64,000 bases of DNA from Phyllobacterium sp. OV277 (GTDB lineage Bacteria; Pseudomonadota; Alphaproteobacteria; Rhizobiales; Rhizobiaceae): positions 124,001 to 188,000 of the forward strand of contig NZ_FNIY01000004.1 of the NCBI RefSeq assembly GCF_900104355.1. The letters run 5' to 3'. Positions 718 to 39,296 of this stretch are shown here, in pieces. Numbering within the stretch: position 1 is the stretch's first letter; each line of letters opens with the position of its first letter. A program made the position numbers and the translations under genes. Below the pieces are notes generated by a model. That model was not told the origin of the DNA. It did no database searches and saw only the letters and a list, made by a program, of their open reading frames with translations.

Positions 718-783
718 CCGGCTTTGCCAGCCAGTGACGGGCAAATGAAAAGATCCGCACTTTGAAACGGGAGGACATGGAAA

Positions 784-1557: not shown

Positions 1558-1567
1558 AAAATCACAA

Positions 1568-1602: not shown

Positions 1603-1721
1603 CCAACGGACCGAGACTGGACATTTCAGCGCCCGTCCAAACTCGACCGAAACCTGAGCTTTTTGACGATTGTGGATATGGCGGAAACGATATTATCTAT
1701 TTGAAATCATACTCTAAAAAT

Positions 1722-1767: not shown

Positions 1768-1844
1768 TAATCCATCCAATAAAACTGGAAAAGCCCGGGT
1801 GATCGGTCTATGGCTGGGATAACGCAACAGCAGAGCAAGGAGCC

Positions 1845-2675
1845 ATGGTGGCTGTTATCCAACCGGCAAAGGGCAAGCGAGGCCGAAAGGCCGCTGCGGA
1901 TGCATCGCCATCATCGGTACAGGTCCTCGACAGGAGCCTGAATCTTTTAACGATCATTGCTGATCACGACGGTTCAGCCTTGACAGAGCTTGCCGACAAG
2001 ACTGGCCTTGCGCCCTCCACTGTTCATCGCCTGCTGACCTCATTGCAAAAACACGACATGGTTTCGCATGACCCGGAAACCGGCGACTGGTCTATCGGCG
2101 TCGGCGCCTTTGCCATCGGCAATGGTTTCCTGCGATCGCGCAAACTTGGCCCAATCAGCCGCCGCTTCCTGAAACGGTTGATGGAGGAGTGCGGCGAGAC
2201 CGCCAATATCGGCATCGAGGACGATGGCGATGTTGTGTTCATTTCCCAGGTCGAAAGCCACGCTCCGATGCGCGCTTTCTTTCGGCCAGGACGGCGCGGG
2301 CCGATCCATGCCTCAGGCATTGGCAAGGCAATTCTGTCCACCTGGTCGGATTCTGAAATCGGCCGGACAGTAAGCAGAAAGCAGCTCGCCCACTTTACCG
2401 ACCATACGCTGGACACGCTTCCTGCACTTTTGAAAAACATCCAAGAAATCCGCTCGCGCGGCTGGTCAATCGATGACGAGGAACACACACTTGGCATGCG
2501 CTGTATTGCTGCGCCGATCTTCAACGAACATGGCGAGGCTGTCGGCGGCATATCGATTTCCGGCCCGACCGTGCGTTTGCCCCGGGACAAGGTTGATGTC
2601 TTGGGTCCAGTCGTGCGTGACACAGCAAACGAGCTGACGCGTGCCATGGGCGGGCGGCGGCCGGAAGAACTGTAG
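1845..2675 (+). CDS. IclR-family transcriptional regulator
   Basis: A 276-residue IclR protein. A basic tail (GKRGRK) precedes the winged helix-turn-helix at about residues 25-85 (ALTELADKTGLAPSTVHRLL as core), followed by the GAF-like effector domain at 85-265 with the conserved GxGKAIL and GMRCIAAPIF segments. Such proteins often sense small carboxylates; E. coli AllR senses allantoin/glyoxylate and represses gcl and all genes, and BhcR senses glyoxylate. A long element in its own promoter recurs before gcl at 42 kb, supporting an AllR-like role; this is inference. SD AGGAG lies only 2 bases before the ATG, so GTG at 1848 is an equal alternative start. It converges on the SucD-like gene, with 13 bases between stop codons. 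Confidence 0.88.
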   Translation: MVAVIQPAKGKRGRKAAADASPSSVQVLDRSLNLLTIIADHDGSALTELADKTGLAPSTVHRLLTSLQKHDMVSHDPETGDWSIGVGAFAIGNGFLRSRKLGPISRRFLKRLMEECGETANIGIEDDGDVVFISQVESHAPMRAFFRPGRRGPIHASGIGKAILSTWSDSEIGRTVSRKQLAHFTDHTLDTLPALLKNIQEIRSRGWSIDDEEHTLGMRCIAAPIFNEHGEAVGGISISGPTVRLPRDKVDVLGPVVRDTANELTRAMGGRRPEEL

Positions 2676-2688
2676 ATCAGGGTTCCCA

Positions 2689-3570
2689 TTAAACAGAAAC
2701 AGCCATAGCCTCGCGAATGGCCTGACCAACAAGATGCGGGCTTTTGGCAATGATGACACCAGCCTCTTCAAGAGCATTGATCTTGCTCTGTGCATCATTC
2801 GCCGCACTTTGCGCAAAAGCACCGGCGTGACCCATGCGGCGCTCCGTTGGTGCATGGCGACCGACCACCAGTCCGACAATCGGAATATCGGGCTTGATTT
2901 CCGTCAGCAATTCCGCGAGTTCCTGTTCCTCTGATCCACCAATCTCACCGATAACAATGACACCATGCGTATCGCGGTCAGCAAGAAACAATTGCATGCA
3001 GTCACGCATGCTCAGCCCATGGATAGCATCGCCGCCAATGCCAACGGTAGTGGACTGGCCCAATCCGACGGCGCTGACCTGCGCAATGACTTCGCTTGTC
3101 AGCGAGGCCGAACGCGACAGAATACCAATCTGGCCCTTTCGCTCGCTGCCGGTTGCCATGACGCCAATCTTGCAGACACCCGGTGAAAGAACCCCTTGAG
3201 AATTTGGTCCGACAAGAACCGTCGAACTTTGCTTGAGCGCCGCACGCACACGCAACATATCCTGCACCGGCACCCGCTCGGTCAGGGCAACGACAAGCGG
3301 CATACCGGCCTCGATAGCTTCGATCATCGCTGCGGCGGCGTTTTCCGGAGGGACGAAAACCATGCTGGCATTTGCACCTGTTTCTCGCATCGCATCGGCA
3401 ACCTCGTTGAAAACAGGAAGATTCAGATGATAGGTCCCGCCTTTGCCGGGCGTGACACCACCAACAATCCGGGTTCCGTATTCGAGCATTGCCGCAGAGT
3501 AGTGCGTCCCTGCCCAGCCGGTCATGCCCTGGCAGATTACACGCGTATTCTGGTCAACGAGAATGGTCAT
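2689..3570 (-). CDS. Succinyl-CoA ligase alpha-like subunit (divergent SucD/MtkB family)
   Basis: A 293-residue ADP-forming CoA ligase alpha subunit: N-terminal CoA-binding Rossmann domain, then the ligase domain with the phospho-histidine in [15 protein letters not shown] (H248). Conserved loops differ from ordinary SucD: GPNSQG instead of GPNCPG, and SRSASLTSE instead of SRSGTLTYE, both present in canonical form in the paralogue at 13.9-14.8 kb. This suggests a different acid substrate, for example malate (MtkB-like) or another C2-C4 acid. The start is ATG at 3570, after GGAGAAAG and sharing ATGA with the stop of the beta subunit; an in-frame start farther upstream was not used. Last gene of the minus-strand oxalate operon. 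Confidence 0.85.
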   Translation of the reverse strand: MTILVDQNTRVICQGMTGWAGTHYSAAMLEYGTRIVGGVTPGKGGTYHLNLPVFNEVADAMRETGANASMVFVPPENAAAAMIEAIEAGMPLVVALTERVPVQDMLRVRAALKQSSTVLVGPNSQGVLSPGVCKIGVMATGSERKGQIGILSRSASLTSEVIAQVSAVGLGQSTTVGIGGDAIHGLSMRDCMQLFLADRDTHGVIVIGEIGGSEEQELAELLTEIKPDIPIVGLVVGRHAPTERRMGHAGAFAQSAANDAQSKINALEEAGVIIAKSPHLVGQAIREAMAVSV

Positions 3571-4751
3571 AGTCTTTCTCCGTTCGACTGTGCAGCCGAT
3601 GTCGCGCGGGTCACGGCCGTCCACATATCAGGACAGTCGATTACCTTGCAGCCGAAATTGGCGAAGCGAAACCGGGCATATTCGGCATTGTTACCAGCCA
3701 GGCGTACAATGACGGGACAAGTGCGGCCGGTTCGCCGCATGGCAATGCCGAGACCGTCGGCGATGGTATCGCACGGCTGCATGCCGCCACCGTGTACATT
3801 GACGAGGATCGAGCGCACCGCCGGATTATTGAGAAGAAGGGTGAAGCCATGGGCGACATCAAGGCTTGTAGCGGTTGTGCGTATATCCATGAAATTTGCA
3901 GGCTTGCCGTTGGCGGCGTAAACCATGTCAAGCGTTGCCAGCCCGAGCCCGGCACCATTAACGGCCAGACCAATATTGCCGTCCATGCGCAGATAATTGA
4001 GCTGACGGTTCTGGGCGACAAGCTCCACCGCATCATCATCATGCTCGTCACGCAATGCCACCAGTTCAGGGTGCCGAAATAGAGCGTTGTCATCAATAAT
4101 CATCTTGGCATCGACCGCAACAAACCCACCCTCCTCCGTTACAGCAAGCGGATTGATTTCGAGCAGCGTTGCATCCAGTTCCACGAAAATCCGGCGCAAC
4201 TGGTCAAGAAGCTGGGCGAAGGCAGATGGCAGATCGGAAGAGACTAGACCTATACGTTTGGCCAGATTGATCGCAACATCTTCCGCCAAAGCATTCCCGG
4301 TTCCCATCGAAATTCGTTCGAGGCGAGTTTCGCCAGATTGAAGCCGCCTTTCAATATCCTCGCTGCCTTCAGCGCCAGCGAGAACCATGATCTCGGCGCT
4401 CGCCACATCGATGGACAGCGACAGATAAAGGTTGCGGACGGGACGAACAGCGGTTTCAATCAACACCCGATTGACGCGGCTGCCTGCCGGGCCCGTCTGT
4501 TCGGTGACAAGCGTTCGCCCCAGCATTGCTGCTGCCGCGACGCCTGCCTGCTCCGGCGTGGAGACAAGCTGGACGCCGCCTGCCAAGCCGCGCCCACCCG
4601 CAAGAATTTGAGATTTTACGGCAATTTTGGTCGCACCCAATGCCGCAGCAGCATCACGCGCCTCAGCGGCAGTCAGTGCCACTCGACCTTCGGGCACACC
4701 GATGCCTCCGGCTGATAGCAGTGCTTTTGACTGGAACTCATGAAGCTTCAT
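3567..4751 (-). CDS. Succinyl-CoA ligase beta-like subunit (divergent SucC/MtkA family)
   Basis: A 394-residue ATP-grasp beta subunit: MKLHEFQSKALL opening, nucleotide-binding segment KSQILAGGRG near residue 44, LLEINPLAV in the ATP-grasp domain, then the C-terminal ligase domain. Against canonical SucC (paralogue at 12.7 kb) the C-terminal part diverges: NVHGGGMQPCDTIADG replaces [15 protein letters not shown]. With the alpha gene, which overlaps by 4 bp, it should form an ADP-forming acid-CoA ligase. ATG at 4751 was chosen because GGAGG sits 8 bases upstream; ATG at 4757 is only 2 bases from that SD. It lies 86 bp after the CoA-transferase gene, so this ligase may supply or recycle the CoA donor for it. 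Confidence 0.85.
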   Translation of the reverse strand: MKLHEFQSKALLSAGGIGVPEGRVALTAAEARDAAAALGATKIAVKSQILAGGRGLAGGVQLVSTPEQAGVAAAAMLGRTLVTEQTGPAGSRVNRVLIETAVRPVRNLYLSLSIDVASAEIMVLAGAEGSEDIERRLQSGETRLERISMGTGNALAEDVAINLAKRIGLVSSDLPSAFAQLLDQLRRIFVELDATLLEINPLAVTEEGGFVAVDAKMIIDDNALFRHPELVALRDEHDDDAVELVAQNRQLNYLRMDGNIGLAVNGAGLGLATLDMVYAANGKPANFMDIRTTATSLDVAHGFTLLLNNPAVRSILVNVHGGGMQPCDTIADGLGIAMRRTGRTCPVIVRLAGNNAEYARFRFANFGCKVIDCPDMWTAVTRATSAAQSNGERL

Positions 4752-4837
4752 AGCCATGGCCTCCCCAAGACTGATTGAGCATTCGCGCAGGGCGGCACCT
4801 GATCGATGCCGCCGCTTTATTTCTTACAAACGGGCGA

Positions 4838-6115
4838 TCATTCCGCCGCGATCTTTTGAGGATCGCCAAGCGCACCGCTCTTTTGCAGATCATCGATAAA
4901 CCGGTTGTCGAATTTGAGCACATCACGCAGGATTTCTTCGGTGTGCTCGCCCAGAAGCGGTGAACGGGTCACATCCGTTGGACTGTCGGAGAGCTTGATC
5001 GGATTGCCGACCGAAAGGTAATTGCCACGCACCGGGTGTTCGACCTCGACAATTGTACCCGTCGCACGCAACGATTGATCTTCGGCAATTTCCTTCATGG
5101 AAAGGATCGGGCCGCAAGGGATGTCCCGATCGTTGAGGAGGGCCATTGCCTCGAATTTGTCCTTGGTCATGGTCCACTCCTCGATGCGGGCGAAAATTGC
5201 ATTGAGGCGGGGCAGCCGGGCGCCGGGCTTGGCATAGTCAGGATGGGTTTTCCATTCCGGCTCGCCAATTACATCGCAGATCGCCTCCCAGACAGGCGCC
5301 TGAGTAATGAAATAGATGTAGGCATTGGGATCAACTTCCCAGCCCTTGCATTTCAGGATACGGCCCGGTTGACCACCGCCGGAATCATTACCAGCACGCG
5401 GTACGCTTTCACCGAATTCAATACCCTCGCCATACTGACTGTATTCATTCAGTGGACCATGGGCAAGGCGCTGCTGGTCGCGCAATTTGACCCGGCATAG
5501 ATTGAGTACGCCATCCTGCATGGCTGCAGAGACTTTCTGGCCGCGTCCGGTTTTCGTACGCTGGAAAAGCGCAGTCACGATACCGAGGCAAAGATGCAAC
5601 CCTGTACCGGAATCGCCGATCTGGGCGCCGGTCACGAGGGGCAATCCATCGCGAAAGCCTGTTGTTGAGGCAGCACCGCCGGTGCATTGCGCAACATTCT
5701 CATACACCTTGCAATCCTGATAAGGCCCCGGACCAAAGCCCTTGATCGAAGCGACGATCATTGCGGGATTGAGTTCCTGAACACGCTCCCACGTAAACCC
5801 CATGCGATCAAGCGCACCGGGAGCAAAATTCTCCACCAGAACGTCGCAATTCCTGATCAGCTCTTCCAGAACCGTCTTTCCGCTCTCGTTCTTTGTATCG
5901 AGCGTGATCGAACGCTTGTTATGATTGAGCATGGTGAAATACAGGCTGTCAGCATCGGGAACATCGCGAAGCTGGCCGCGCGTAATGTCGCCGACACCGG
6001 GGCGCTCGACCTTAATGACATCGGCACCAAACCAGGCAAGAAGCTGTGTGCATGTTGGTCCAGACTGGACGTGGGTGAAGTCTAGGATGCGAACACCCTC
6101 CAAAGCTTTTGTCAT
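4838..6115 (-). CDS. frc: Formyl-CoA:oxalate CoA-transferase (class III CoA-transferase)
   Basis: A 425-residue family III CoA-transferase, close to the 428 residues of Oxalobacter Frc. It begins [17 protein letters not shown] and carries ADVIKVERP, the phosphate/CoA segment. The active-site aspartate is D168 in [11 protein letters not shown], matching Asp169 of Frc, where it forms acyl anhydride intermediates. Frc moves CoA from formyl-CoA or succinyl-CoA to oxalate, giving oxalyl-CoA in the cytoplasm. Context strongly supports oxalate: a ThDP enzyme upstream in the operon, an OxlT-like carrier across the divergent promoter, and CoA-ligase genes downstream that could renew succinyl-CoA. SD GGGAAGG precedes the ATG. 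Confidence 0.85.
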
Positions 6116-6162
6116 AGTTCCTTCCCTTCTTCAGTACAGATTGTTCTGCTTATGTCGATTTG

Positions 6163-6190
6163 AACCGGCGGCCTTAGGCAGCCGCCGGTT
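6163..6190 (-). terminator. GC-rich hairpin between the ThDP gene and frc
   Basis: A perfect 10-bp stem (AACCGGCGGC / GCCGCCGGTT) with an 8-base loop, just past the ThDP-enzyme stop. There is no clear U-run on the minus strand, so it is better read as a partial terminator or a 3'-end-protecting hairpin that lowers frc expression relative to the first gene. Confidence 0.5.
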
Positions 6191-6197
6191 GTTATCG

Positions 6198-7952
6198 TTA
6201 TTTGTACATTGTCTGGTTCTTGGTCCCCGGCGCGTATTCGTTCGGATCGACCCAGATATTGACGACAGCTGACCGACCGGTCCTGGCAATCGCTTCACGA
6301 GCCCGCTGGAGAGCAGGCTGAATCTGCGAAGCTTCACGAACCTCCTCGCCATGATTGCCGAGCATATGCGCGAATTTGGAGAACTCGACGTCGCCAAGCT
6401 TGTTGCCGACATTGCCACGTTCTTCGCCATATTTTGCCACCTGACCATAACGGATCTGGTTCATCGAAGAGTTGTTGCCGATAACCGCAAGATATGGAGC
6501 GTGGAAGCGGTCGCAGGTTTCCATGTCGAATGCCGTCATCGAGAAGGCGCCATCGCCGTAGTAGCAAAGCACTTCCTTGTTTGGATGAGCGAGCTTTGCG
6601 CCAAGTGCGAAGCCTGTCCCTACACCCAGCGAGCCAAGCGCACCCGGATCCATCCACTGGCCCGGATTGCGCGGACGCACCGCCTGAGCCGAGATCGTCA
6701 CCACGTCACCACCGTCGCCGATGTAGATCGTGTCTTCGCCAAGAAACTCATTGAGTTCGTAGGCGACGCGGTAAGGATGAATCGGGCTCTGATCCGATTT
6801 CAAAAGCGGCAGGACCTTCTCATAGGCAATCGCTTCCTGCTCCTCCAGCGTCTTCATCCACTGTTGACGCGCCTGACGCTTGCCCTTGTCGATCCGGCTC
6901 GAAGCAGCCTGCAAAACAGCAGAAAGAATAGCACCGGGATGGCCGACGAGGCCGAGATTGATATCGCGGTTCTTGCCGACAGTGCGATAATCCTGATCGA
7001 TCTGCACAAGTGTCAAGTCCTTGGAAATCCGCTTGCCGTAGCCCATGCGGAAATCGAATGGCGTGCCAATGACAACAATCACATCGGCGTTGCTGAAAGC
7101 GAAGCCACGCGTGCGGTCGAAGTGGTGCGGATCGCCGATCGGCAATGTGCCACGGCTGGCTCCATTGAAATATCCGGGAATATCCAGACCGCGCAACAGT
7201 TCCACGGCAGCGTCGGTGCTGCCCGATGTGAAAACCTGCTGACCGAACAGGATCGCCGGACGTTCGGCATTCACCAGAACGTCGGCCAGTCTCTCGATAT
7301 CAGCCGGATCGCCGATTGAATAGGTTGAGGCTCTGTATCTGCCCGGCTGCGGAATGACAGCTTTCTCCAGGGGTATTTCACGATCCAGAACATCGCGGGG
7401 AATTTCGAGATAGGAAGGCCCGGATGCGCCTGAAAAGCATTCGCGCGCCGCCATGGAAATCATATCGGCAATGCGTTCTGTCGATGAGACGCCGGCAGCA
7501 AACTTGGTGATAGGGGTCATCATGTCGACATGGGGCAAATCCTGCAGCGAACCCATCTTGTGCTGAGTAAGGGCTCCCTGTCCGCCAATATGCAACACGG
7601 GGCTTTCCGAGCGGAACGCCGTTGCGATACCTGTGACTGCATTGGTGCAGCCGGGACCGGCAGTGGTAACGACGCAGCCAAGTTTGCCTGTCTGCCGGGC
7701 ATAGCCATCCGCGGCATGTGCGGCGACCTGCTCATGGCGCACGTCGATGATACGAATGCCTTCATCAATGCAGCCGTCATAGATATCGATGATGTGACCG
7801 CCGCACAGTGTGAAGATGGTATCGACGCCCTCGTTCTTCAGCGCCTTCGCCACCAGATGTCCGCCAGACACCACGCTCCCGTCGCGCACCTTCCGCTTTA
7901 ATGTATCTTCAGCCGTTGATGTGGCTTTCTCAACTTTCGTGACGATAGTCAT
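6198..7952 (-). CDS. ThDP-dependent enzyme of the acetolactate synthase/oxalyl-CoA decarboxylase superfamily
   Basis: A 584-residue three-domain ThDP enzyme: PYR domain with catalytic glutamate E74 (VRHEQVAAHAADGYAR), a central Rossmann-like domain, and a PP domain with the Mg/ThDP motif GDG (466-468) ending in NN (493-494). Between frc and an oxlT-like gene the expected enzyme is oxalyl-CoA decarboxylase, yielding formyl-CoA and CO2. However, the segment after the ThDP motif reads NNSSMNQIRYG, not the NNGGIY of Oxalobacter Oxc. The glutamate rules out a glyoxylate carboligase of Gcl type, which has Val there. An unusual Oxc-like decarboxylase or a carboligase acting on oxalyl-/formyl-CoA are both possible. 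The start is fixed by AGGAGG about 9 bases upstream. First gene of the minus-strand operon. Confidence 0.8.
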   Translation of the reverse strand: MTIVTKVEKATSTAEDTLKRKVRDGSVVSGGHLVAKALKNEGVDTIFTLCGGHIIDIYDGCIDEGIRIIDVRHEQVAAHAADGYARQTGKLGCVVTTAGPGCTNAVTGIATAFRSESPVLHIGGQGALTQHKMGSLQDLPHVDMMTPITKFAAGVSSTERIADMISMAARECFSGASGPSYLEIPRDVLDREIPLEKAVIPQPGRYRASTYSIGDPADIERLADVLVNAERPAILFGQQVFTSGSTDAAVELLRGLDIPGYFNGASRGTLPIGDPHHFDRTRGFAFSNADVIVVIGTPFDFRMGYGKRISKDLTLVQIDQDYRTVGKNRDINLGLVGHPGAILSAVLQAASSRIDKGKRQARQQWMKTLEEQEAIAYEKVLPLLKSDQSPIHPYRVAYELNEFLGEDTIYIGDGGDVVTISAQAVRPRNPGQWMDPGALGSLGVGTGFALGAKLAHPNKEVLCYYGDGAFSMTAFDMETCDRFHAPYLAVIGNNSSMNQIRYGQVAKYGEERGNVGNKLGDVEFSKFAHMLGNHGEEVREASQIQPALQRAREAIARTGRSAVVNIWVDPNEYAPGTKNQTMYK

Positions 7953-8262
7953 TGACGTCTTTCCTCCTATTGAACCTTGTCGTCTTTTATCGTTGGCGGC
8001 TGCTCGCCTGACTGATGCCGAACACAAAGGCCGGATGCAAAACCGCACTACCTGCAAGGTGCGGGTCAGGGCGGGAGCCAACAGGCTCAGCTACATCGAG
8101 ATTTTGCATGCGATAACGCTCGTTGGTGTCGAGAGCCTCGCCTTCCACCCCCGAGGGCGAAGCCAGCGGGCGCAGCCGGGAGGCCGAAGCCGAACCGGAA
8201 TTCACAAGTTTTAAGACGCTTGTTCGCCTGCGTATGGCGCTCAAAGTGCCCGTAAAAAAGTT

Positions 8263-8280
8263 CTGGCATAATAAATACCA
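8263..8280 (-). promoter_or_regulatory. GntR-type operator candidate, site 1 (upstream of the ThDP gene)
   Basis: Reads TGGTATTTATTATGCCAG on the minus strand, the strand of the ThDP gene and frc. It fits the pattern TGGTAT-N5-ATnCCAG shared by five sites in this cluster. Confidence 0.55.
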
Positions 8281-8380
8281 AAAGTCAAACAACCAAAATC
8301 TGTGAAAACCCGCAATTTATGGCGCACATTAAAAACACGAAAATATCGAAACAATTCGGCGTTTACCGCGTTCTATAAGG

Positions 8381-8414
8381 GTGCAATGCACAATTCTTCT
8401 TGTGTGCACTGCAC
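8381..8414. promoter_or_regulatory. Paired palindromes GTGCAnTGCAC in the divergent promoter region
   Basis: GTGCAATGCAC (8381-8391) and GTGCACTGCAC (8404-8414) are each perfect odd palindromes with centres 23 bp apart, about two helical turns. They lie between GntR-type sites 1 and 2. The spacing suits two dimers on one face of the DNA; the protein is unknown. The pair could also form a hairpin in RNA. Confidence 0.45.
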
Positions 8415-8463
8415 AACCCATGCAAAAATGGGATGCTGATATGCGTCAGCGGAGATTGTGAAC

Positions 8464-8481
8464 TGGGATATGGTATGCCAG
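8464..8481 (+). promoter_or_regulatory. GntR-type operator candidate, site 2 (upstream of the 45-aa ORF)
   Basis: TGGGATATGGTATGCCAG, 39 bases before the ATG of the 45-residue ORF. It keeps both half-site cores (TGGnAT and ATnCCAG) with one change in the left arm, so it is the weakest of the five. Confidence 0.4.
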
Positions 8482-8519
8482 ATAAGCGCCAACATTAATC
8501 GAAAACAGGAGTGTCAACC

Positions 8520-8657
8520 ATGCCGGCACGCGCAGAAATTGCTTCAGTAACCACCCGTACCGCCCCCCGCGGCCTCATCGAGACGATTCTGGCCTTCCTT
8601 GACCGGGTTGCAGAGACCAACGCACGCAATAAAAACTACGAACCTTTCGGCCTTTAA
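8520..8657 (+). CDS. Small protein of 45 residues, function unknown
   Basis: An ORF of 46 codons with a good SD (ACAGGAG, 8 bases before ATG) and its own strong terminator 28 bases after the stop. This three-part layout, together with an upstream operator, argues for a real gene. The predicted protein is basic at the start (two Arg before residue 18), has a hydrophobic amphipathic stretch GLIETILAFLDRVAE (about residues 18-32) and ends in NKNYEPFGL. There is no signal peptide or full membrane span. I do not recognise a family. Sitting between the ThDP operon and oxlT under a GntR-type site, it may be a small partner of the transporter or of an oxalate enzyme; this is a guess. Confidence 0.6.
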   Translation: MPARAEIASVTTRTAPRGLIETILAFLDRVAETNARNKNYEPFGL

Positions 8658-8685
8658 CACCCGAGACTTTCGATTCGTTCCGTTC

Positions 8686-8719
8686 AAGCGGCCGCCGGAT
8701 TCCCCTCCGGCGGCCGCTT
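8686..8719 (+). terminator. Strong hairpin after the 45-aa ORF
   Basis: A perfect 14-bp stem (AAGCGGCCGCCGGA / 8706-8719) with a 6-base loop. A run of six T follows about 20 bases later at 8741-8746. It separates the small gene from the oxlT transcript. Confidence 0.75.
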
Positions 8720-8783
8720 AACGTTTTGAAGTCACGAGGTTTTTTCTAAACTTGCATATCAGATAAGCTTGGGTCTTGTCTTT

Positions 8784-8801
8784 TGGTATAACTGATACCA
8801 G
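8784..8801 (+). promoter_or_regulatory. GntR-type operator candidate, site 3 (oxlT promoter)
   Basis: TGGTATAACTGATACCAG, with perfect TGGTAT/ATACCA arms, 59 bases before the oxlT-like start. TATAAC inside it (8787-8792) could serve as the -10 box, so binding would block transcription. Confidence 0.6.
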
Positions 8802-8860
8802 TATGTCCCCTATCAGCGCATGGCATTTTAGCTAACAAAAAGCGTCAGAAAGGGAAGGAA

Positions 8861-10153
8861 ATGACTCAAGCGGTGAAAGAGGGTTTCCAATCGCAACCTG
8901 TAAGCGATGGATTCAGATGGGGACAATTGGCTGTTGGTGTGGTCTGTATGGTCATGATTGCCAACCTCCAATATGGTTGGACATTCTTCGTTCCTGAAAT
9001 CACGAAGCAGTTCGGTTGGGGACGGAGCGAAATTCAATGGGCATTTACGATCTTCGTTCTCTTCGAAACTTGGCTCGTTCCGATCGAGGGCTGGTTCGTT
9101 GACAAATACGGACCGAAAATCGTCATCCTTTTCGGCGGCGTATTGTGCGGTATCGGCTGGGTTATCAATTCCTATGCTGACACGATGCTTCTGTTCTGCA
9201 TCGGGCAGGCCGTTGCCGGTATTGGTGCAGGTGCGGTGTACGGAACGTGTGTCGGCAACGCATTGAAATGGTTTCCGGACCGGCGCGGACTTGCCTCCGG
9301 CATCACGGCAGCCGGTTTTGGTGCGGGTTCAGCACTGACAGTTTGGCCAATCCAGGCCACAATCGCGAATTACGGCTTCCAAAATGCCTTCCTGACCTTC
9401 GGTTTAGGACAGGGCATTATTATTGTTTTGCTTTCCTTCTTCCTGTTGGCGCCAAAGCCCGGTCAGGTGGCTGAGGTAACCAACAAAGGGCCGATCATCC
9501 AGAGTCGGCGTCAGTATTCACCTTCTGAAGTGCTGAAGCACCCGATTTTCTGGCTCATGTATGTCATGTTCGTCGCTGTGGGCGCCGGTGGTCTCGTTGT
9601 AACGGCAAACCTTGCGCCGATGGCCAAGGATTACGGCGTTGCCGACATTCCCATGTGGTTGGGTATACCGGCTCTCACGCTGGCAGCGACACTGGACCGC
9701 CTGCTCAACGGCGTGACTCGGCCCTTCTGTGGTTGGGTTTCAGATAAAATCGGACGCGAGAACACCATGTTCATCGCCTTCGGTGTGGAAGCAATCGGCA
9801 TATATCTGCTCTACCTCTACGCCGGTAATCCGGTGATGTTTGTTATTCTGAGCGGCCTGGTGTTCTTTGCCTGGGGCGAGATCTACTCTCTCTTTCCGTC
9901 AACGTGCACCGATACGTTCGGTTCGAAATTCGCTGCAACCAATGCCGGCCTACTTTACACGGCGAAAGGTACAGCGGCACTCCTTGTGCCCTTCGGTACG
10001 GCTCTGGCCGTCAACGGCAACTGGAACTCGGTGTTCATCATCGGCGTCGTCCTGAATGCCGGAGCGGCGCTCGCGGCGCTGTTCATACTCAAGCCGTGGC
10101 GTGCAGGTATTATTCGCAAGACGCAAGAGAGCGCTCTGCAGCCAGCACAGTAG
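8861..10153 (+). CDS. oxlT: Oxalate:formate antiporter-like MFS transporter (OFA family)
   Basis: A 430-residue major facilitator protein with about 12 hydrophobic segments. The first loop has the MFS pattern GWFVDKYGPK (about 77-86), and the second half repeats it at GWVSDKIGRE (291-300). Oxalobacter OxlT binds oxalate with Arg272 and Lys355. Here R287 (LLNGVTRPFCGW) and K369 (LLYTAKGTAALL) sit in matching contexts and almost the same distance apart, which supports oxalate or a similar dicarboxylate as substrate. It would exchange oxalate for formate across the inner membrane. The N-terminal signature NLQYGWTFFVPEI is typical of the OFA group. The start follows GGAAGGAA. It is preceded by GntR-type site 3. 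Confidence 0.85.
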   Translation: MTQAVKEGFQSQPVSDGFRWGQLAVGVVCMVMIANLQYGWTFFVPEITKQFGWGRSEIQWAFTIFVLFETWLVPIEGWFVDKYGPKIVILFGGVLCGIGWVINSYADTMLLFCIGQAVAGIGAGAVYGTCVGNALKWFPDRRGLASGITAAGFGAGSALTVWPIQATIANYGFQNAFLTFGLGQGIIIVLLSFFLLAPKPGQVAEVTNKGPIIQSRRQYSPSEVLKHPIFWLMYVMFVAVGAGGLVVTANLAPMAKDYGVADIPMWLGIPALTLAATLDRLLNGVTRPFCGWVSDKIGRENTMFIAFGVEAIGIYLLYLYAGNPVMFVILSGLVFFAWGEIYSLFPSTCTDTFGSKFAATNAGLLYTAKGTAALLVPFGTALAVNGNWNSVFIIGVVLNAGAALAALFILKPWRAGIIRKTQESALQPAQ

Positions 10154-10166
10154 TACACAACGAAGC

Positions 10167-10193
10167 TCCGGGCTGGAAATCACCCAGCCCGGA
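10167..10193 (+). terminator. Hairpin after oxlT
   Basis: A perfect 10-bp stem TCCGGGCTGG / CCAGCCCGGA with a 7-base loop, 14 bases past the oxlT stop. No U-run follows, so termination strength is uncertain. Confidence 0.55.
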
Positions 10194-10400
10194 CACTCAT
10201 CTCAAACTACAAGACATTGTCGGCATCGGATTCAAAAGCCCGGCAACACCTATCTGCCCCGGTATCGCGATTGAGAATCTCAACGCGCTGCGGGCAGGTC
10301 GATTACCGGCCAAAGGGTCGAACAACTGACACCAGAATAATCAGTCCTATCGAATGCGAACAGCCATGTGCAGCACGAGCAGGACTTGACAGCATTTTTA

Positions 10401-10418
10401 CTGGAATACATTATACCA
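10401..10418 (-). promoter_or_regulatory. GntR-type operator candidate, site 4 (acyl-CoA synthetase promoter)
   Basis: Reads TGGTATAATGTATTCCAG on the minus strand, 100 bases before the synthetase start. It overlaps the likely -10 region that follows TTGACA at 10386-10391, a layout suited to repression. Confidence 0.6.
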
Positions 10419-10517
10419 GTATGGCGGGCACGATAATCAACCGGCCGCGCCGCTGGTCATCCAAGCCACATCAACGCCGCCAGCACGGGGAGTGCAGGCA
10501 GCACCAGGGAGGAAATC

Positions 10518-12644
10518 ATGCTCGACAAAACCGTTGTCCGAAACGTACTCGAAACGGCGCGGGCCGAGGGCCGTCAGGCGCTTACCGCACCAGAAGGCAA
10601 ACTTATTTGCGATGCCTACGGCATTGCTGTTCCGCAGGAAGGCGTTGCCGGAAGCGCCGAGGAAGCTGTCTCGCTTGCAACGGGCATGGGCTATCCAGTG
10701 GTGATGAAAATCGTTTCCCCTGATATCCTGCACAAAACGGAAGCTGGCGGCGTTGTCGTCGGCGTCAAATCCGCCGAAGAAGCAAAGGCTGCCTTCGACA
10801 AGATCATTGCCAATGCCAAAGCCTATAAGGCCGATGCTGAAATCATCGGTGTACAGGTTCAGCAAATGCTGACTGGCGGTCTTGAGGTCATTATCGGCGC
10901 AGTCTCGGACGACAGTTTCGGCAAGCTTGTTGCCTTTGGTCTCGGCGGCGTTCTGGTGGAAGTTCTAAAGGACATTACCTTCCGTCTGGCACCAGTGACA
11001 AATGACGAAGCTCTGTCGATGCTCGACAGCATTCAGGCAGCAGAAATGCTGAAGGGCGTGCGCGGCGGTGAACCCGTCAACCGCGAAGCGCTCGCTGACT
11101 TGATCGTGCGCGTTTCCAAGCTTGTCGACGACTATCCCGAGATTTCCGAGCTCGATCTCAATCCGGTTTTTGCCACGAAGGAAGGGGCTATCGCCGCAGA
11201 CGTGCGTATCGTCATCGACTACAACCAGACAAAGCCACGCCACCGGCCAAGCCAGGAAGAAATCCTGAAATCCATGAACCGCATCATGCGCCCGAAAGCC
11301 GTCGCTGTGATCGGTGCATCGGCAGAGGATGGCAAGATCGGCAACTCCGTGATGAAGAACCTCATCAACGGTGGCTATAAGGGGCACATCTATCCCATCC
11401 ATCCGAAAGCCGAAGAAATACTTGGCTACAAGACGTATAAAAGCGTCAAGGATGTACCCGGCGATATCGATACGGCAGTCTTTGCCATTCCAGCCAAGTT
11501 TGTCGCAGGAGCGCTAACAGAATGCGGCGAAAAGAAAATCCCCGGTGCTGTCCTCATCCCCTCGGGCTTTGCCGAAGCGGGCGAACCTGAACTGCAGGAC
11601 GAAATCGTCAAGATCGGCCGCAAATACAATATCCGCCTCATGGGCCCGAACATTTACGGCTTCTACTACACGCCCGAAAATCTATGCGCCACCTTCTGCA
11701 CGGCCTATGACGTCAAGGGCTCGGCGGCATTGTCGTCACAGTCAGGTGGTATCGGCATGGCGATCATCGGTTTCTCACGCTCGGCCAAAATGGGCGTATC
11801 GGCAATTGTCGGCCTCGGCAACAAGTCTGATATCGACGAAGACGATCTGCTCACATTCTTCGAACAGGACGACAATACACGGATCATCGCCCAGCACCTC
11901 GAGGATCTGAAAGACGGCCGGGCCTTTGCCGAAGCAGCGAAACGCGTCTCGAAGAAAAAGCCGATCGTCGTGCTCAAGGCAGGACGCACATCCGCTGGTG
12001 CCAAGGCAGCATCATCCCATACGGGCGCTCTTGCCGGTAACGACAAGATTTATGAAGACGTTTTCAAACAGGTCGGCGTCATCCGCGCACGCTCACTACG
12101 CCAACTTCTCGAATTCGCCCGCGGCATTCCTGTCATGCCCACACCAAAGGGAGAAAATGTTGTCATCATCACCGGCGCCGGTGGTTCGGGCGTGCTGCTT
12201 TCCGATGCCTGCGTTGATAACGGTCTGAACCTGATGGCAATGCCCGATGATCTTGACGCAGCATTCCGCAAATTCATTCCGCCCTTCGGTGCGGCGGGAA
12301 ATCCTGTCGACATCACGGGCGGCGAACCGCCCCTCACCTACAAGAACACGGTCAAGCTCGGCCTAGAGGATGACCGCATCCATTCACTGATCCTCGGTTA
12401 TTGGCACACCATCGTCACCCCGCCGATGGTCTTTGCCAAACTGATGGTTGAGGTGAAGGAAGAAATGGCTGCCAAAGGCATAGAAAAGCCGATGGTTGCA
12501 TCACTTGCCGGCGACGTCGAAGTCGAAGAAGCCGCCGAGTATCTCTATCTGCATGGCATTCCTGCCTATGCCTATTCAACTGAACTTCCAGTCGAAGTGC
12601 TGGGGGCTAAGTACAAATGGGCGAGAGGCGCAGGTCTTCTCTAA
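10518..12644 (+). CDS. ADP-forming acyl-CoA synthetase (fused beta-alpha acetate--CoA ligase family)
   Basis: A 708-residue fusion in beta-then-alpha order. An ATP-grasp domain comes first (about 15-240, with [21 protein letters not shown] and SELDLNPV). Next is a CoA-binding Rossmann domain (about 255-345, AVAVIGAS), then the ligase domains, with the likely phosphohistidine H501 in [10 protein letters not shown]. Such enzymes interconvert acid + ATP + CoA and acyl-CoA + ADP + Pi. The acid is not evident; oxalate, formate, glycolate or succinate would suit the neighbours. Direct activation of oxalate here would bypass the need of Frc for a CoA donor. SD AGGAGG-like before ATG. Preceded by GntR-type site 4 and followed closely by sucCD. 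Confidence 0.82.
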
Positions 12645-12727
12645 GTCCTCCCCGCGCCAGGCACCGGCATAAACCGGGGTCTGGCATCCACTCAAAATTC
12701 AGGCGTTTTCAAGGGGAGGTTTCCTCA

Positions 12728-13927
12728 ATGCATATTCATGAGTATCAGGCCAAGGACGTGCTCAAATCCTTCGGCGTACCCGTACCTGAGGGCTATCTGG
12801 TCACCGATATCGACGAGGCCGGTGAGATGGCCGCAAAACTTCCCGGACCTGTTTTCGTCGTCAAATCGCAAATTCACGCTGGCGGCCGTGGCAAAGGTTC
12901 ATTCAAGGAACTCGGTGATGGTGCCAAGGGCGGCGTTCGTCTAGCGCGTTCCATCGCGGAGGTGCGCGAATACGCTGCCGAAATGCTTGGCAATACATTG
13001 GTGACAGTCCAGACAGGTCCTGCAGGCAAGCAGGTCAACCGTCTCTATGTCGAAGACGGGTCGCAGATCGAGAAGGAGTTTTACCTCTCGCTTCTTGTTG
13101 ACCGCGCGACCAGCCGCGTCTCCTTTGTGGTCTCCACCGAAGGCGGGATGGACATCGAAACCATCGCTCACGATACACCCGAAAAGATCCTGACCTTTTC
13201 AGTAGACCCGGCGACAGGCATCATGCCCCATCATGGCCGTGCTGTCGCCAAGGCGCTGGAACTGGACGGCGATCTTGCCAAGCAGGCGCAGTCGCTCATT
13301 GCCAAGCTTTACGGAGCATTCATCGCCAAGGATATGGAGATGCTCGAGATCAATCCGCTGATCGTCTCGAAAGACGGACAGCTGAAATGTCTCGACGCAA
13401 AGGTCAGCTTCGATTCCAATGCCCTCGCCCGTCATCTCGACATTGCCGCGATGCGCGACGAAAGCGAAGAGGACGCCAAGGAGATCGAAGCATCGAAATA
13501 TGACCTCTCTTATATCACGCTGGATGGCAGCATCGGTTGTATGGTCAATGGCGCCGGACTTGCCATGGCAACCATGGACATCATCAAGTTCTACGGTGCG
13601 GAACCTGCCAATTTTCTTGATGTCGGGGGTGGCGCGACGACTGAAAAGGTGGCGGCTGCGTTCAAGATCATAACCGCCGATCCCAATGTGAAAGGCATCC
13701 TCATCAACATCTTCGGCGGCATCATGCGCTGCGATGTCATCGCGGAAGGGGTGATCACCGCTGTCAAGGAAGTGGGTCTGAAGGTTCCGCTCGTTGTCCG
13801 CCTCGAAGGCACCAACGTCAATGAAGGCAAGAAAATCATCGCGACGTCAGGGCTGAATGTGATCTCTGCCGACGATCTCGACGATGCTGCGCAGAAGATC
13901 GTCAATGCTGTTGGAGGTTCAAACTAA
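12728..13927 (+). CDS. sucC: Succinyl-CoA ligase [ADP-forming] beta subunit
   Basis: A 399-residue SucC of near-standard length. Conserved parts are [20 protein letters not shown] at the start, [11 protein letters not shown] in the ATP-grasp domain, [11 protein letters not shown], and [15 protein letters not shown] in the ligase domain. It makes succinyl-CoA from succinate, ATP and CoA, or the reverse in the TCA cycle. ATG at 12728 was chosen from the SucC N-terminus and the SD GGGGAGG about 9 bases before it; the frame is open upstream without an SD. Because it sits in the oxalate cluster behind the synthetase, it may be a dedicated copy that provides succinyl-CoA to the CoA-transferase rather than the TCA-cycle gene; the usual mdh-sucCD-sucAB context is absent. 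Confidence 0.9.
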
Positions 13928-14844
13928 TGTCTATTTTGATCAACAAGGACACCCGCCTCCTCTGCCAGGGCTTTACCGGAAAAACCGGTACCTTCCACAG
14001 CGAGCAGGCAATCAAGTACGGCACCAAAATGGTTGGGGGCACTTCCCCCGGCAAGGGTGGTACATCGCATCTCGGCCTGCCTGTATTCGACACGGTGGCA
14101 GAAGCACGCGAGGCGACAGGCGCCGATGCATCGGTGATCTACGTGCCGCCCTTTGGTGCGGCGGATGCAATCTGCGAGGCCATTCAGGCGGAAATCCCGC
14201 TGATCGTTTGCATCACCGAGGGGATTCCGGTTCTCGACATGCAACGCGTCAAACGCGCCTTATCTGGTTCAAAATCACGCTTGATTGGTCCGAACTGCCC
14301 CGGCATCATGACCGTTGACGAATGCAAGATCGGCATCATGCCGGGGTCCATCTTCCGCAAAGGATCTGTTGGTATCGTGTCACGTTCGGGCACGCTGACT
14401 TACGAAGCCGTATTCCAGACCTCGCAACAGGGCCTTGGCCAGACAACCGCTGTGGGCATTGGCGGTGATCCCATCAAGGGTACCGAATTTATCGACGTGC
14501 TGGAGATGTTCCTCGCCGATCCTGCAACGGAATCCATTGTGATGATCGGTGAAATTGGCGGCACCGCCGAGGAGGACGCTGCGCAGTTTCTTGCCGATGA
14601 GGCAAAACGAGGGCGATCGAAACCAACAGTGGGATTTATCGCGGGCCGGACGGCTCCTCCCGGCCGACGCATGGGCCATGCGGGCGCTATCATCTCCGGG
14701 GGCAAGGGCGGTGCTGAAGACAAACTCGCCGCTATGGAAGCGGCTGGCCTCTGGATCGCTTCCACTCCGGCGCGTCTCGGAACCACATTGGTTGAACTTC
14801 TGAATGGCGATCAGCGTTATCAACGCGCCTCGAACGCCAGATAA
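13927..14844 (+). CDS. sucD: Succinyl-CoA ligase [ADP-forming] alpha subunit
   Basis: A 305-residue SucD: CoA-binding Rossmann domain ([16 protein letters not shown]), then GPNCPGIMT and SRSGTLTYE, and the phosphohistidine H251 in GRRMGHAGA. All canonical loops are intact, unlike the paralogue at 2.7-3.6 kb. The ATG overlaps the last base of the sucC stop (TAATG), so the two are translationally coupled. It is the last gene of the oxlT-side plus-strand group before gntR. Confidence 0.9.
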
Positions 14845-14863
14845 ACGGTTCGATCTAAAGTGA

Positions 14864-14893
14864 ACATGCGCGGCACGACCAATCCGCGCATGT
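14864..14893 (+). terminator. Hairpin after sucD
   Basis: A perfect 10-bp stem ACATGCGCGG / CCGCGCATGT with a 10-base loop, 20 bases after the sucD stop. There is no clear U-run; likely transcript end or stabilising structure. Confidence 0.5.
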
Positions 14894-14995
14894 ATGGCGG
14901 CAGATTATTATTCCAGTACCAAACCCGGCTCCAAACAGTGTTTCCGACGAGTAATGGTTGCAAAAATTCGTAAAATGACTTCAAAGAACTAGATA

Positions 14996-15013
14996 TGGTA
15001 TTATACATTCCAA
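14996..15013 (+). promoter_or_regulatory. GntR-type operator candidate, site 5 (gntR promoter)
   Basis: TGGTATTATACATTCCAA, only 22 bases before the gntR start codon, so bound regulator would cover the promoter or translation start region. Consistent with autoregulation. Confidence 0.55.
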
Positions 15014-15035
15014 ATGAACATGGAGATCACCCGAC

Positions 15036-15770
15036 GTGAGCCCTAGAACCCAGATGCGTTGGCCAATGGCCGATGAAGCCACCCCCAATCTCGTCCTTGA
15101 ACCGTTCGCTGCAGAGCCGAACTTCAAAACGCGGATATATGGTGCGCTGAAGCAGGCCATCGCGAATATGGATATCTACGGCACGACGGAAGACAAATGG
15201 CTTGACGAGCGCCAGCTTGCTGACCGGCTTGGTGTCAGCCGCACGCCGATCCGTGAAGCAATCGCCATGCTTGAGCAACAGGGTTTTGTTAAATCCATCC
15301 CCCGTCGCGGCATTATGGTCCTGCGTAAGACCAAGCGTGAAGTGATCGAAATGATCCAGATGTGGGCTGCCCTTGAGGGCATGGCTGCCCGGCTCGTTTC
15401 ACTCAATGCCAGCGGCAAGGAAATTGCCCGGTTGCGCAAGCTCTTTGAGGATTTTCACGAAGACCACAAACCTGCAGACTATCCTGGCGAATATTCCGAA
15501 GCCAACCTGCAGTTTCACCAGACTTTGATCCAGATGACTGATTCAAAGATTCTACGGGAAACAACCGAGAACATTCTCCTGCATGTGCGCGGAATCCGGA
15601 AAATCACTATCGGTCGCGATGACCGGGCATCCCAGTCGATCAAGGACCATCTGGCGATTATCACCGCGCTGGAAAAGCGTGATACGGAGTTGGCTGAAAA
15701 GCTCTGCCGTGATCATACGCTTGGCCTTGCGGCCTATGTGGAGAAGCACAGCGAAGGCATCTTCGACTAA
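15036..15770 (+). CDS. GntR-family regulator, FadR/FCD type, probable regulator of the oxalate cluster
   Basis: A 244-residue regulator with an N-terminal winged helix (about 32-100, LDERQLADRLGVSRTPIREAI) and an all-helical C-terminal FCD ligand-binding domain (105-235) with His residues usual for metal/acid binding (NLQFHQTL, DHLAII, CRDHTLG). FCD regulators typically bind small carboxylates and open palindromic TGGTnTACCA-like sites. Five such sites (TGGTAT-N5-ATnCCAG) occur before the ThDP gene, the 45-aa ORF, oxlT, the synthetase and this gene. The GTG start at 15036 has GGAG 10 bases upstream; ATG at 15054 or 15066 are alternatives. Effector could be oxalate, oxalyl-CoA or formate (inference). 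Confidence 0.88.
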   Translation: MSPRTQMRWPMADEATPNLVLEPFAAEPNFKTRIYGALKQAIANMDIYGTTEDKWLDERQLADRLGVSRTPIREAIAMLEQQGFVKSIPRRGIMVLRKTKREVIEMIQMWAALEGMAARLVSLNASGKEIARLRKLFEDFHEDHKPADYPGEYSEANLQFHQTLIQMTDSKILRETTENILLHVRGIRKITIGRDDRASQSIKDHLAIITALEKRDTELAEKLCRDHTLGLAAYVEKHSEGIFD

Positions 15771-15813
15771 CAAAGTGCCTCGGGCCTATTTCCTGTTCTA
15801 ATCCGGAGATGCG

Positions 15814-16830
15814 ATGACGAACCTACCTCAAAACATGACGGTCATCGCTATCAGCCAACCGGGCGGCCCTGAAGTCCTCAAGCCCGAACAGCGTCCCGTT
15901 CCCGCCCCTGCGGGAAATGAAATCCTCATTCGCGTCGCTGCGGCCGGGGTCAACCGGCCCGATATATTTCAACGCCTCGGTGCCTATCCGCCTCCGAAGG
16001 GTGCCACTGATCTGCCCGGTCTTGAGGTTTCCGGCACGGTCGCAGCGCTGGGAAGCGGCGTCAACAGGTGGAAAATCGGAGACAGGGTCTGTGCGCTGGC
16101 CCCGGGTGGTGGCTATGCTGAATATGTGACTGTTGACGGAAACAGCACACTCCCTGCCCCCGAAGGGTTTTCACCCGTTGACGCGGCTGCTTTGCCGGAA
16201 ACATTCTTCACCGTCTGGCACAATGTTTTCGAACTTGGAGGGCTAAAGCAGGGTGAAACCTTGCTGGTCCATGGCGGCGCTTCAGGTATCGGAACCACTG
16301 CAATCATGCTTGCCAAGGCATTTGGGGCCAATGTGATCGTGACTGCTGGAACGGATGAAAAATGCGCGGCCTGCCGCGACCTTGGAGCAGATAAGGCCAT
16401 TAATTATCGCAGCACCGATTGGGTGACAGAGATCAAGAAGGTGACCGATAGCAAAGGCGCTAACGTCATTCTTGATATGGTCGGCGGCGCTTACATCGAA
16501 CAGAACTATCAAGCCGCGGCCATCGGCGGACGCATTGTCAACATTGCATTCCTGCAAGGCTCCAAGGTCGAGGTTGACTTCATGCGCCTGATGATGAAGC
16601 GCCTGACCCATACGGGGTCAACCCTGCGCGCTCAGTCACTCGAAGCAAAGGCTCGAATTGCTGCGGCACTTGAAGCCAATGTTTGGCCGCTTCTCGCCAG
16701 TGGCCAATGTCGCCCGCTTATCCACGCCCGGTTTCCATTGGTTGAGGCCAGCCGCGCCCATGCATTGATGGAAGCGAATGCCAATATCGGCAAGGTCATC
16801 CTCACAATCGGCGACGACTGGCTCTCTTGA
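15814..16830 (+). CDS. NAD(P)H:quinone oxidoreductase, PIG3-type zinc-independent MDR enzyme
   Basis: A 338-residue medium-chain dehydrogenase/reductase. N-terminal GroES-like domain with AAGVNRPDIFQRLGAYPPP, the PIG3/QOR signature; Rossmann domain with LLVHGGASGIGTTAIMLAKAFGA and VTAGTDEKC. The catalytic-zinc Cys/His set of alcohol dehydrogenases is missing. Such enzymes reduce quinones or enones with NADPH. It begins 43 bp after gntR on the same strand and may share its transcript. A link to oxalate use is not obvious; a general redox role is equally likely. SD GGAGAT before ATG. Confidence 0.85.
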   Translation: MTNLPQNMTVIAISQPGGPEVLKPEQRPVPAPAGNEILIRVAAAGVNRPDIFQRLGAYPPPKGATDLPGLEVSGTVAALGSGVNRWKIGDRVCALAPGGGYAEYVTVDGNSTLPAPEGFSPVDAAALPETFFTVWHNVFELGGLKQGETLLVHGGASGIGTTAIMLAKAFGANVIVTAGTDEKCAACRDLGADKAINYRSTDWVTEIKKVTDSKGANVILDMVGGAYIEQNYQAAAIGGRIVNIAFLQGSKVEVDFMRLMMKRLTHTGSTLRAQSLEAKARIAAALEANVWPLLASGQCRPLIHARFPLVEASRAHALMEANANIGKVILTIGDDWLS

Positions 16831-39292: not shown

Positions 39293-39296
39293 TCGC

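Follow-up and report, generated by a model that had tools for sequence, protein, structure and literature searches.

The DNA considered here is a 64,000-nucleotide stretch of contig NZ_FNIY01000004.1 of Phyllobacterium sp. OV277, a soil bacterium associated with plants (positions 124,001 to 188,000), called the window below and numbered from its first base. At its left end lies a cluster of genes for oxalate utilization, together with a gene for a GntR-type regulator and repeated palindromes that stand ahead of the presumed transcription units. The cluster probably forms a regulon under that single regulator. Its features are as follows (ThDP, thiamine diphosphate; CoA, coenzyme A; ORF, open reading frame):

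1..717, + strand: panE-type gene, 3′ part, candidate oxalyl-CoA reductase; start at L019:5698, 303 bases before window base 1
784..1557, + strand: FAA-hydrolase family gene, downstream of panE
1845..2675, + strand: IclR-type regulator of the BhcR family (NF045644, 351.9 bits; marginally above the cut-off of 350)
2689..3579, - strand: sucD-like ligase alpha subunit, second pair; start codon provisional
3567..4757, - strand: sucC-like ligase beta subunit, second pair
4838..6115, - strand: frc, formyl-CoA:oxalate CoA-transferase (TIGR03253, 727.5 bits; cut-off 504.2)
6198..7952, - strand: ThDP enzyme in the oxc slot, first ~12 codons oxc-like
8264..8280, no strand: putative operator 1 (ThDP-frc-sucCD2 promoter), TGGCATAATAAATACCA
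8464..8480, no strand: putative operator 2 (45-aa ORF), TGGGATATGGTATGCCA
8520..8657, + strand: 45-aa ORF (orf45), small-protein family mostly ending EPFGL
8784..8800, no strand: putative operator 3 (oxlT), TGGTATAACTGATACCA
8861..10153, + strand: oxlT, oxalate/formate antiporter of the major facilitator superfamily (TIGR04259, 618.5 bits; cut-off 335)
10402..10418, no strand: putative operator 4 (acs), TGGAATACATTATACCA; overlaps candidate -10 CATTAT, with TTGACA at 10386
10518..12644, + strand: acs, conserved member of the module, assigned at family level as ADP-forming acyl-CoA synthetase
12728..13927, + strand: sucC-like ligase beta subunit, first pair
13927..14844, + strand: sucD-like ligase alpha subunit, first pair
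14996..15012, no strand: putative operator 5 (gntR), TGGTATTATACATTCCA; overlaps weak candidate -10 TATTAT
15036..15770, + strand: gntR, GntR/FCD regulator (VanR-type), proposed binder of the six sites
15814..16830, + strand: quinone oxidoreductase (qor, PIG3 family), downstream of gntR and possibly co-transcribed

Frc and OxlT score above the curated cut-offs and are true members of their families; the domains of the acs product are those of ADP-forming acyl-CoA synthetases, and it falls below every equivalog cut-off. The gene assignments of the preliminary description of this DNA hold, except that the ThDP gene lies outside the canonical oxalyl-CoA decarboxylase (Oxc) family. The presumed transcription units, each with one palindrome, are the panE operon, ThDP-frc-sucCD2, the 45-aa ORF, oxlT, acs-sucCD1 and gntR-qor. 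Window positions 1-16800 also occur, at 91.6% DNA identity, on a 397-kb plasmid of Phyllobacterium sp. T1293.

Six palindromes in one gene cluster

The preliminary description had reported five copies of a palindrome, TGGTAT-N5-ATnCCAG, and all five are present where it placed them, with the 17-bp cores listed above. Read on either strand, that pattern is exact in three copies and has one mismatch in those at 8464 and 14996. TGGNAT-N5-ATNCCA is a better description, fitting 6/6 sites, and the stricter pattern TGGNATWNNNWATNCCA fits four of the six. The sixth palindrome is outside the window, 491 bp to its left (L019:5494-5510; C22:123494-123510), and stands 187 bp before the panE-type gene. 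It was missed earlier because the panE promoter begins left of the window; within the window the next-best matrix score is 11.6. All six sites fall within one 16-kb cluster.

All site scores come from a symmetrized matrix built from the six sites. The five in the window score 22.4-28.4, far from the next-best position in the 64 kb, and when a window site is omitted from the matrix its score is reached nowhere in the window except at known sites. First-order Markov random sequence gives 1.6 matches/Mb at a score of at least 15 and none in 1.92 Mb at a score of at least 18. In the 5.33-Mb genome there are seven exact matches to TGGNATNNNNNATNCCA, namely the five window sites, the sixth site and one on contig C15 that lies inside open frames with a matrix score of 3.0; the six cluster sites are the only ones of the seven that we regard as credible. 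The earlier description had proposed to check whether the motif is equally common elsewhere, and exact copies prove rare in the rest of the genome. Places one mismatch away from TGGNATNNNNNATNCCA, which stand outside the matrix scoring, number about 230 genome-wide (237 minus 7), and a backwards control pattern gives 45. With up to three mismatches TGGTAT-N5-ATnCCAG is weakly enriched in the window (55 vs 40 +/- 7 expected), a search that was dropped as too loose to be of use. The palindromes are real and far beyond chance, and the regulon that they mark is almost certainly real as well.

By eye, a compact 10-bp palindrome can be seen within some of the 17-mers (window 8464-8480; L116-L121), for example TGGTATGCCA. 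It implies half-sites that overlap at a 7-bp step and may mean two dimers per site.

Conservation of the sites in relatives

Fourteen further gntR clusters (L043-L051, L017 and L031-L034) and the weaker loci L035, L052 and L053 were scanned at a matrix score of at least 13. With the window included, a site precedes the gene in the oxc/ThDP slot in 15/15 clusters, gntR likewise in all 15 (lowest score 13.4, in L034) and acs in 14. The orf45 and oxlT sites are present in 9/9 clusters where the script found these genes (the window, L043-L049 and L032), and L052 (gntR 53%) has a site before gntR. An extra site lies between sucC2 and frc in 8 of the 14 clusters (L044-L049, L051, L034; three loci end earlier) and another before sucC2 in L033; the window and L043 are without an operator before the second sucCD pair.

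Orthologs of panE (at least 78% identical; 16 genomes searched) have a site in 13/13 cases, starting 53-252 bp before the gene, and it is kept even where panE is on another contig. None of nine panE paralogs (41-56%) has one, two of these (L103, L105) being partial hits. Orthologous genes thus retain their sites across species and genus boundaries, a point that had likewise been proposed for checking. In one Phyllobacterium locus (L049, 17798-18530) gntR is split into two frames (residues 1-169 and 170-244) with the scanned operators present, which may be a natural loss or an assembly error.

The GntR protein as candidate binder

The gntR product combines a winged helix-turn-helix domain (PF00392, 48.1 bits; cut-off 27) with an FCD domain (PF07729, 87.7 bits; cut-off 24.3). 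In the VanR group of FCD regulators the effector domain has six helices. The structural model (mean predicted local distance difference test score 83) has effector helices at residues 100-124, 127-135, 150-167, 171-191, 197-213 and 217-237; an additional helix characterizes the FadR group (PMC7797058). The nearest folds are PmiR, a Brucella GntR protein and Atu1419, and the last is among the top matches by both sequence and fold. Asn157, His161, His183, His205 and His227 are invariant in 21 proteins; metal-binding FCD members have Asp plus three His, and position 157 is Asn here.

With its counterpart in Phyllobacterium myrsinacearum the gntR product shares 96% identity, with those of four other Phyllobacterium 91-92% and with those of three Mesorhizobium 85-86%. 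Eight of 20 Phyllobacterium genomes have gntR, and frc is above its cut-off in the same eight. Across 297 genomes of the family, gntR is found at E 1e-60 in nine; three or more copies of TGGNATWNNNWATNCCA, counted by eye, occur in 7/9 genomes with gntR vs 6/288 without (Fisher P 1.6e-9, relatedness ignored). In other families of the order, a GntR relative (44-52%) stands beside the ThDP gene at seven loci (L121-L126, L129), and in 7/7 a site scoring 15-19 lies ~80-220 bp before the aligned gntR start. For relatives at 44-53% the count becomes 8/9 loci, L052 having a site and L053 none. At these distant loci the left arm has often drifted (TGGTGTAT...), and in Cupriavidus and Caballeronia (GntR 54-55%) there are degenerate copies alone, scoring 13-19. 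The GntR protein is thus very probably the binder of the palindromes, and the GntR oxalate regulon put forward in the preliminary description is, as far as sequence can tell, supported.

A ThDP enzyme in the oxc position

The ThDP enzyme scores 218 bits against the Oxc model NF006721 (cut-off 557), fails to reach the cut-off of any Oxc or lyase model, and is 26-28% identical to Oxc in global alignment. Canonical Oxc, at ~1000 bits, is found in the three non-Phyllobacterium clusters tested (L051, L034, L032). Among the gntR genomes, the TIGR03254 cut-off is passed in 7/8 from outside Phyllobacterium (in G043 only with two pieces summed), the cluster of the eighth (G226) ending inside the gene at a contig end, and in 0/8 from Phyllobacterium. 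The ThDP enzyme has the reverse distribution (E 1e-60), with 8/8 Phyllobacterium vs 0/8 other gntR genomes.

Several features connect the ThDP gene to the gene that it appears to have replaced. The 17-bp core of operator 1 is identical before the canonical oxc of L032 and before an Oxc-like gene of L017, an assignment made outside the family-model scoring. Residues 1-12 of the ThDP enzyme, MTIVTKVEKATS, agree at 7-10 of 12 positions with the Oxc leaders of five gntR clusters, and matches reach at most 5/12 in 110 ThDP homologs (120 compared, of which nine could not be scored and P0015, 97% identical with the same leader, was counted apart). The ribosome-binding region also looks oxc-like. In the frc tree, Phyllobacterium frc groups (96/94) with that of L034, which has canonical Oxc, and then with L032 (83/94, not strong); the other two canonical-Oxc holders in the tree, L051 and L033, fall elsewhere, in an unresolved fork with ThDP-type rows. 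The tree together with the leader suggests that one gene, and not the operon, was exchanged. Because the leader belongs to Oxc, it was most likely oxc that was replaced by the ThDP gene and not the reverse. The incoming gene seems to have taken over the position of oxc together with its operator, its ribosome-binding site and about 12 codons. The exchange has the look of a clean example in which the enzyme changed and the operator did not.

The ThDP family extends well beyond this cluster. At E 1e-200 it occurs in 21/249 genomes of the order, the present one included. In 19 of the 20 other loci frc adjoins the ThDP gene, and the 20th ends at a contig end. Eight plasmid records match, two of them from Phyllobacterium and one a second Cupriavidus metallidurans record; in the five examined (Cupriavidus, Caballeronia, two Streptomyces and Nonomuraea) frc and acs accompany the ThDP gene in 5/5. 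Canonical Oxc is above its cut-off in none of the 20 ThDP-bearing genomes of the order (best 330 bits vs 739) and, with the eight Phyllobacterium added, in 0/28. The same module recurs in an actinobacterium, far from the Alphaproteobacteria: on a Streptomyces fungicidicus plasmid (L151), an OFA transporter gene is contiguous with sucDC, ThDP, frc and acs.

The simplest reading is that the ThDP family would be a second family of oxalyl-CoA decarboxylases. It could instead be of 2-hydroxyacyl-CoA lyase type, with a formyl-CoA lyase role, as might be expected from its nearest solved relatives, which by sequence and fold are such lyases. We consider this doubtful: Oxc itself is about equally close by fold (7ayg, template modeling score 0.81), the gene sits exactly in the place of oxc before frc, and canonical Oxc is missing from every ThDP genome in the count just given. 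Members of the family carry the annotation 'acetolactate synthase' or else 'thiamine pyrophosphate-binding protein'. If oxalyl-CoA decarboxylation is their function, annotation may be corrected, a widespread 'acetolactate synthase' probably being an oxalyl-CoA-handling enzyme where oxc seems to be lacking. Surveys based on canonical oxc would miss these organisms.

A small-protein family and an exchanged transporter

The 45-aa ORF had been described as an unannotated small gene. It is conserved, with homologs of ~45 residues in Phyllobacterium, Pseudaminobacter and Labrys (14 in one search, 25 in another; some gene calls begin earlier), although a relative's plasmid record does annotate it, as 'hypothetical protein'. 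Residues M1, F26, L27, A31, R36 and E41-P-F-G-L45 are invariant in 13 aligned sequences; a later homolog, P0138, ends EHFGL. In 10/10 rows the ORF starts ~55-68 bp after the operator start (repeated rows counted once, and L032 outside the set). Codon changes are 9 synonymous to 1 non-synonymous against the closest relative and 12 to 8 against P. myrsinacearum. The middle of the protein could form an amphipathic helix, as judged from its hydrophobic moment. Just 3′ of the ORF, at 8686-8722, a GC-rich inverted repeat was seen by eye; the terminator scan does not list it, and it might terminate a small transcript.

The transporter behind the operators has, it appears, been exchanged in the same way as the enzyme: genes of TctC and TctA type replace OxlT in L050, L051, L017, L031, L033 and L034, with operators nearby. 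In two of these loci, of Mesorhizobium type, a gene for a TerC/YjbE-type membrane protein lies between tctA and acs (L017 4700-5404; L050 3769-4473, the latter by translation). The 45-aa ORF occurs in OxlT clusters, plus two Labrys-type loci without a transporter in view; none of the loci compared has both the ORF and a Tct match. Strong matches are found at 11 loci (L043-L049, L032, L116, L117, L120), of which L116 has oxlT as a fragment only and L117 and L120 do not have it in view. A Tct match without the ORF is likewise found at 11 (L050, L051, L017, L031, L033, L034, L052, L053, L123, L124, L129), several of them with short flanks. OxlT occurs without a match to the ORF in L118 and in the Cupriavidus and Caballeronia clusters, and L119 has a weak copy ending VPFGL beside OxlT. 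A significance test of the association was set aside, since its 11 vs 11 table was set by hand and omitted L118, L119 and the transporterless loci. A role with OxlT, as partner or regulator, is our guess.

A joint claim can be made of a second oxalyl-CoA decarboxylase family (in Hyphomicrobiales, Burkholderiales and Streptomyces), an in-frame displacement of oxc under a GntR switch, and a new family of small proteins under the same switch that may be partners or regulators of OxlT; that all of these hold together we regard as evenly poised. A signal kept while enzyme and transporter were swapped points to one regulator that switches the whole set.

PanE and the fate of glyoxylate

The panE-type product belongs to the ketopantoate-reductase (PanE/ApbA) family by PF02558 and PF08546, and its context makes it a candidate for an oxalyl-CoA reductase. 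Such a reaction would deliver glyoxylate. A glyoxylate carboligase gene lies elsewhere in the window (40197-41984), with isomerase-like and reductase-like frames alongside (38408-41984), and this region is a likely glyoxylate sink. It was rejected as a member of the regulon, there being no site with a score of at least 13 and the best nearby scoring 8.0 at 42037. A search for bhcB, the only gene of its pathway that was sought, gave none in 8 Phyllobacterium genomes at E 1e-60. In another genus (G090; L034 328-3518) bhcA, bhcB and bhcR stand beside the oxalate regulon, an arrangement that joins oxalate to the beta-hydroxyaspartate cycle.

Promoters and proposed mechanism

At panE and acs, the best -35/-10 pair (10/12) sets the -10 element inside the palindrome, a score reached by 0.5% of random positions and 2.9% of AT-rich window positions. 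A protein bound there would keep RNA polymerase out, and since gntR has a site of its own, it may control itself. Rfam gives no match at the gathering score anywhere in the window, and the 311 nt that lead into the ThDP gene (7953-8263) thus fit no described riboswitch family.

We suggest the following sequence of events. A GntR dimer, or a dimer of dimers, would sit on each palindrome until oxalate, or a product one step on, enters the metal/carboxylate pocket of the C-terminal domain and the DNA is released. OxlT would then import oxalate, and Frc would place CoA onto it, the acyl-CoA ligases being possible CoA donors or energy-savers. The ThDP enzyme, in the stead of Oxc, would decarboxylate oxalyl-CoA, and PanE would turn part of the oxalyl-CoA to glyoxylate by reduction. 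In evolution, enzyme and transporter would have been exchanged while the operators stayed. That an oxalate-utilization regulon of Phyllobacterium is run in this manner by one FCD (VanR-type) GntR protein is, as a full explanation, probable; for its mechanistic part, repression that oxalate or a near product relieves, we have a slight preference.

A number of observations weigh against this interpretation. The link between GntR and the sites is drawn from comparison of DNA and proteins, from which binding and expression are inferred, and the effector is guessed at from the genes present. The acs gene of L033 has no site at a score of at least 13, nor do the surroundings of gntR in L035 (69%, contig end) and L053 (51%). 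Exact copies of TGGNATNNNNNATNCCA overlap in number between Phyllobacterium genomes with gntR (7-12 in eight) and without it (1-8 in twelve), three of the latter carrying eight. The palindrome of Atu1419 is 10 bp long (ATGTATACAT) and serves hydroxycinnamate genes, whereas here it is 17 bp with N5 between the arms. The gntR promoter pair (9/12, with its -10 inside the palindrome) is matched by 21.5% of AT-rich positions, and those of ThDP, orf45 and oxlT (7-8/12) are at chance, being matched by 64-99%. These four promoters are uninformative because AT-rich DNA often scores alike; gntR, at first counted as a third promoter with its -10 in the palindrome, was dropped after the AT-matched control, and panE and acs stay. 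A regional promoter scan (3 sites vs 4.2 in shuffles) was uninformative overall. Finally, a second regulator, the BhcR-type IclR protein, is encoded inside the cluster, and every genome that keeps the sites may have it.

It might be that GntR binds the sites and chiefly activates the catabolic genes, or regulates them in both directions. The ThDP site, 311 bp from the start codon, would suit such a role, as would the four of six promoters that match no better than AT-rich DNA. At panE and acs, however, the covered -10 fits repression, and the FCD examples Atu1419 and GlcR are repressors (PMC7797058, PMC11323563). Mainly positive control seems to us rather unlikely.

Alternatively, the palindromes could be operators of the IclR protein (1845-2675), which is of a glyoxylate-sensing type, and not of GntR. 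Its gene passes the NF045644 cut-off and adjoins panE in 8/8 Phyllobacterium genomes. The IclR consensus ends in TGG...CCA, resembling the arms of the palindrome. Glyoxylate moreover reduces DNA binding by BhcR, and pyruvate or oxalate enhances it (PMC11323563). In L032, L051 and L031, however, iclR was not found in the cluster or within 1.5 kb of panE, the only places searched, and the sites are present; sites also recur upstream of gntR relatives at the distant loci described above, and bhcB was not found in any of the eight Phyllobacterium genomes. That iclR is absent from the clusters L045-L049 does not count against this rival, because iclR adjoins panE in those genomes (four of the five have panE on a different contig). 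Control by IclR in place of GntR is, in our view, distinctly improbable.

That the repeats are chance occurrences or a mobile repeat family is scarcely credible, since the mild enrichment of the simple pattern at three mismatches and the up to eight looser exact copies in gntR-less genomes are set against the matrix controls, the genome-wide clustering, the conservation at orthologous promoters and the lack of sites at panE paralogs.

Comparison with known systems

Plants and soils are rich in oxalate, and the switching of oxalate genes in soil bacteria seems to be little described. In a literature search by title and the start of the abstract, which covered few subscription papers, no GntR regulator of oxalate genes came up. 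One paper in which oxalate, GntR and oxc occur together (PMC8305402) mentions GntR genes, in the part available, nowhere but in a nodule-expression table; in the corresponding parts of two others, a regulator goes unmentioned (PMC12927642) or none of the terms sought occurs (PMC10192776). With the regulon proposed here, a binding site would already be at hand for what may be an oxalate sensor.

One of the closest parallels is GlcR of Paracoccus denitrificans, a GntR-type repressor of glycolate oxidase, alongside BhcR for glyoxylate (PMC11323563). Both systems would pair a GntR-type repressor for a C2 acid with a BhcR-type glyoxylate regulator and lead carbon to glyoxylate. They differ in that GlcR controls glycolate oxidase and no oxalate genes, and in that Paracoccus passes glyoxylate to the beta-hydroxyaspartate cycle, whereas Phyllobacterium has bhcB in 0/8 genomes and the window has a glyoxylate carboligase. 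With Atu1419 of Agrobacterium fabrum (VanR group), whose palindrome overlaps the -10 element and whose protein bound citrate and zinc (PMC7797058), the likeness lies in fold class and a palindrome over a -10 element, here a candidate one, and would extend to a metal/carboxylate pocket and autoregulation.

In gene content the cluster resembles frc-oxc-oxlT of oxalotrophs and yfdXWUVE of E. coli, Frc and OxlT being true family members here. The E. coli genes answer to EvgA (PMC3720670); here there is a GntR regulon that includes PanE, acyl-CoA ligases and a ThDP enzyme outside the canonical family. The PanE/ApbA-family gene in an oxalate regulon recalls the PanE2 route of Methylobacterium extorquens, with function in our case taken from context. 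An oxalyl-CoA reductase route through PanE2 was reportedly described in that species by Schneider in 2012. The Methylobacterium enzyme is named for the PanE/ApbA family (PMC8411744). The ThDP enzyme falls, by sequence and fold, within the 2-hydroxyacyl-CoA lyase/oxalyl-CoA decarboxylase superfamily (PMC11271303); it does not reach the cut-offs of the Oxc and lyase models and forms an frc-linked family of its own. As a kind, the regulon is already known; what is newer in this system is the exchange of the enzyme, along with the small protein.

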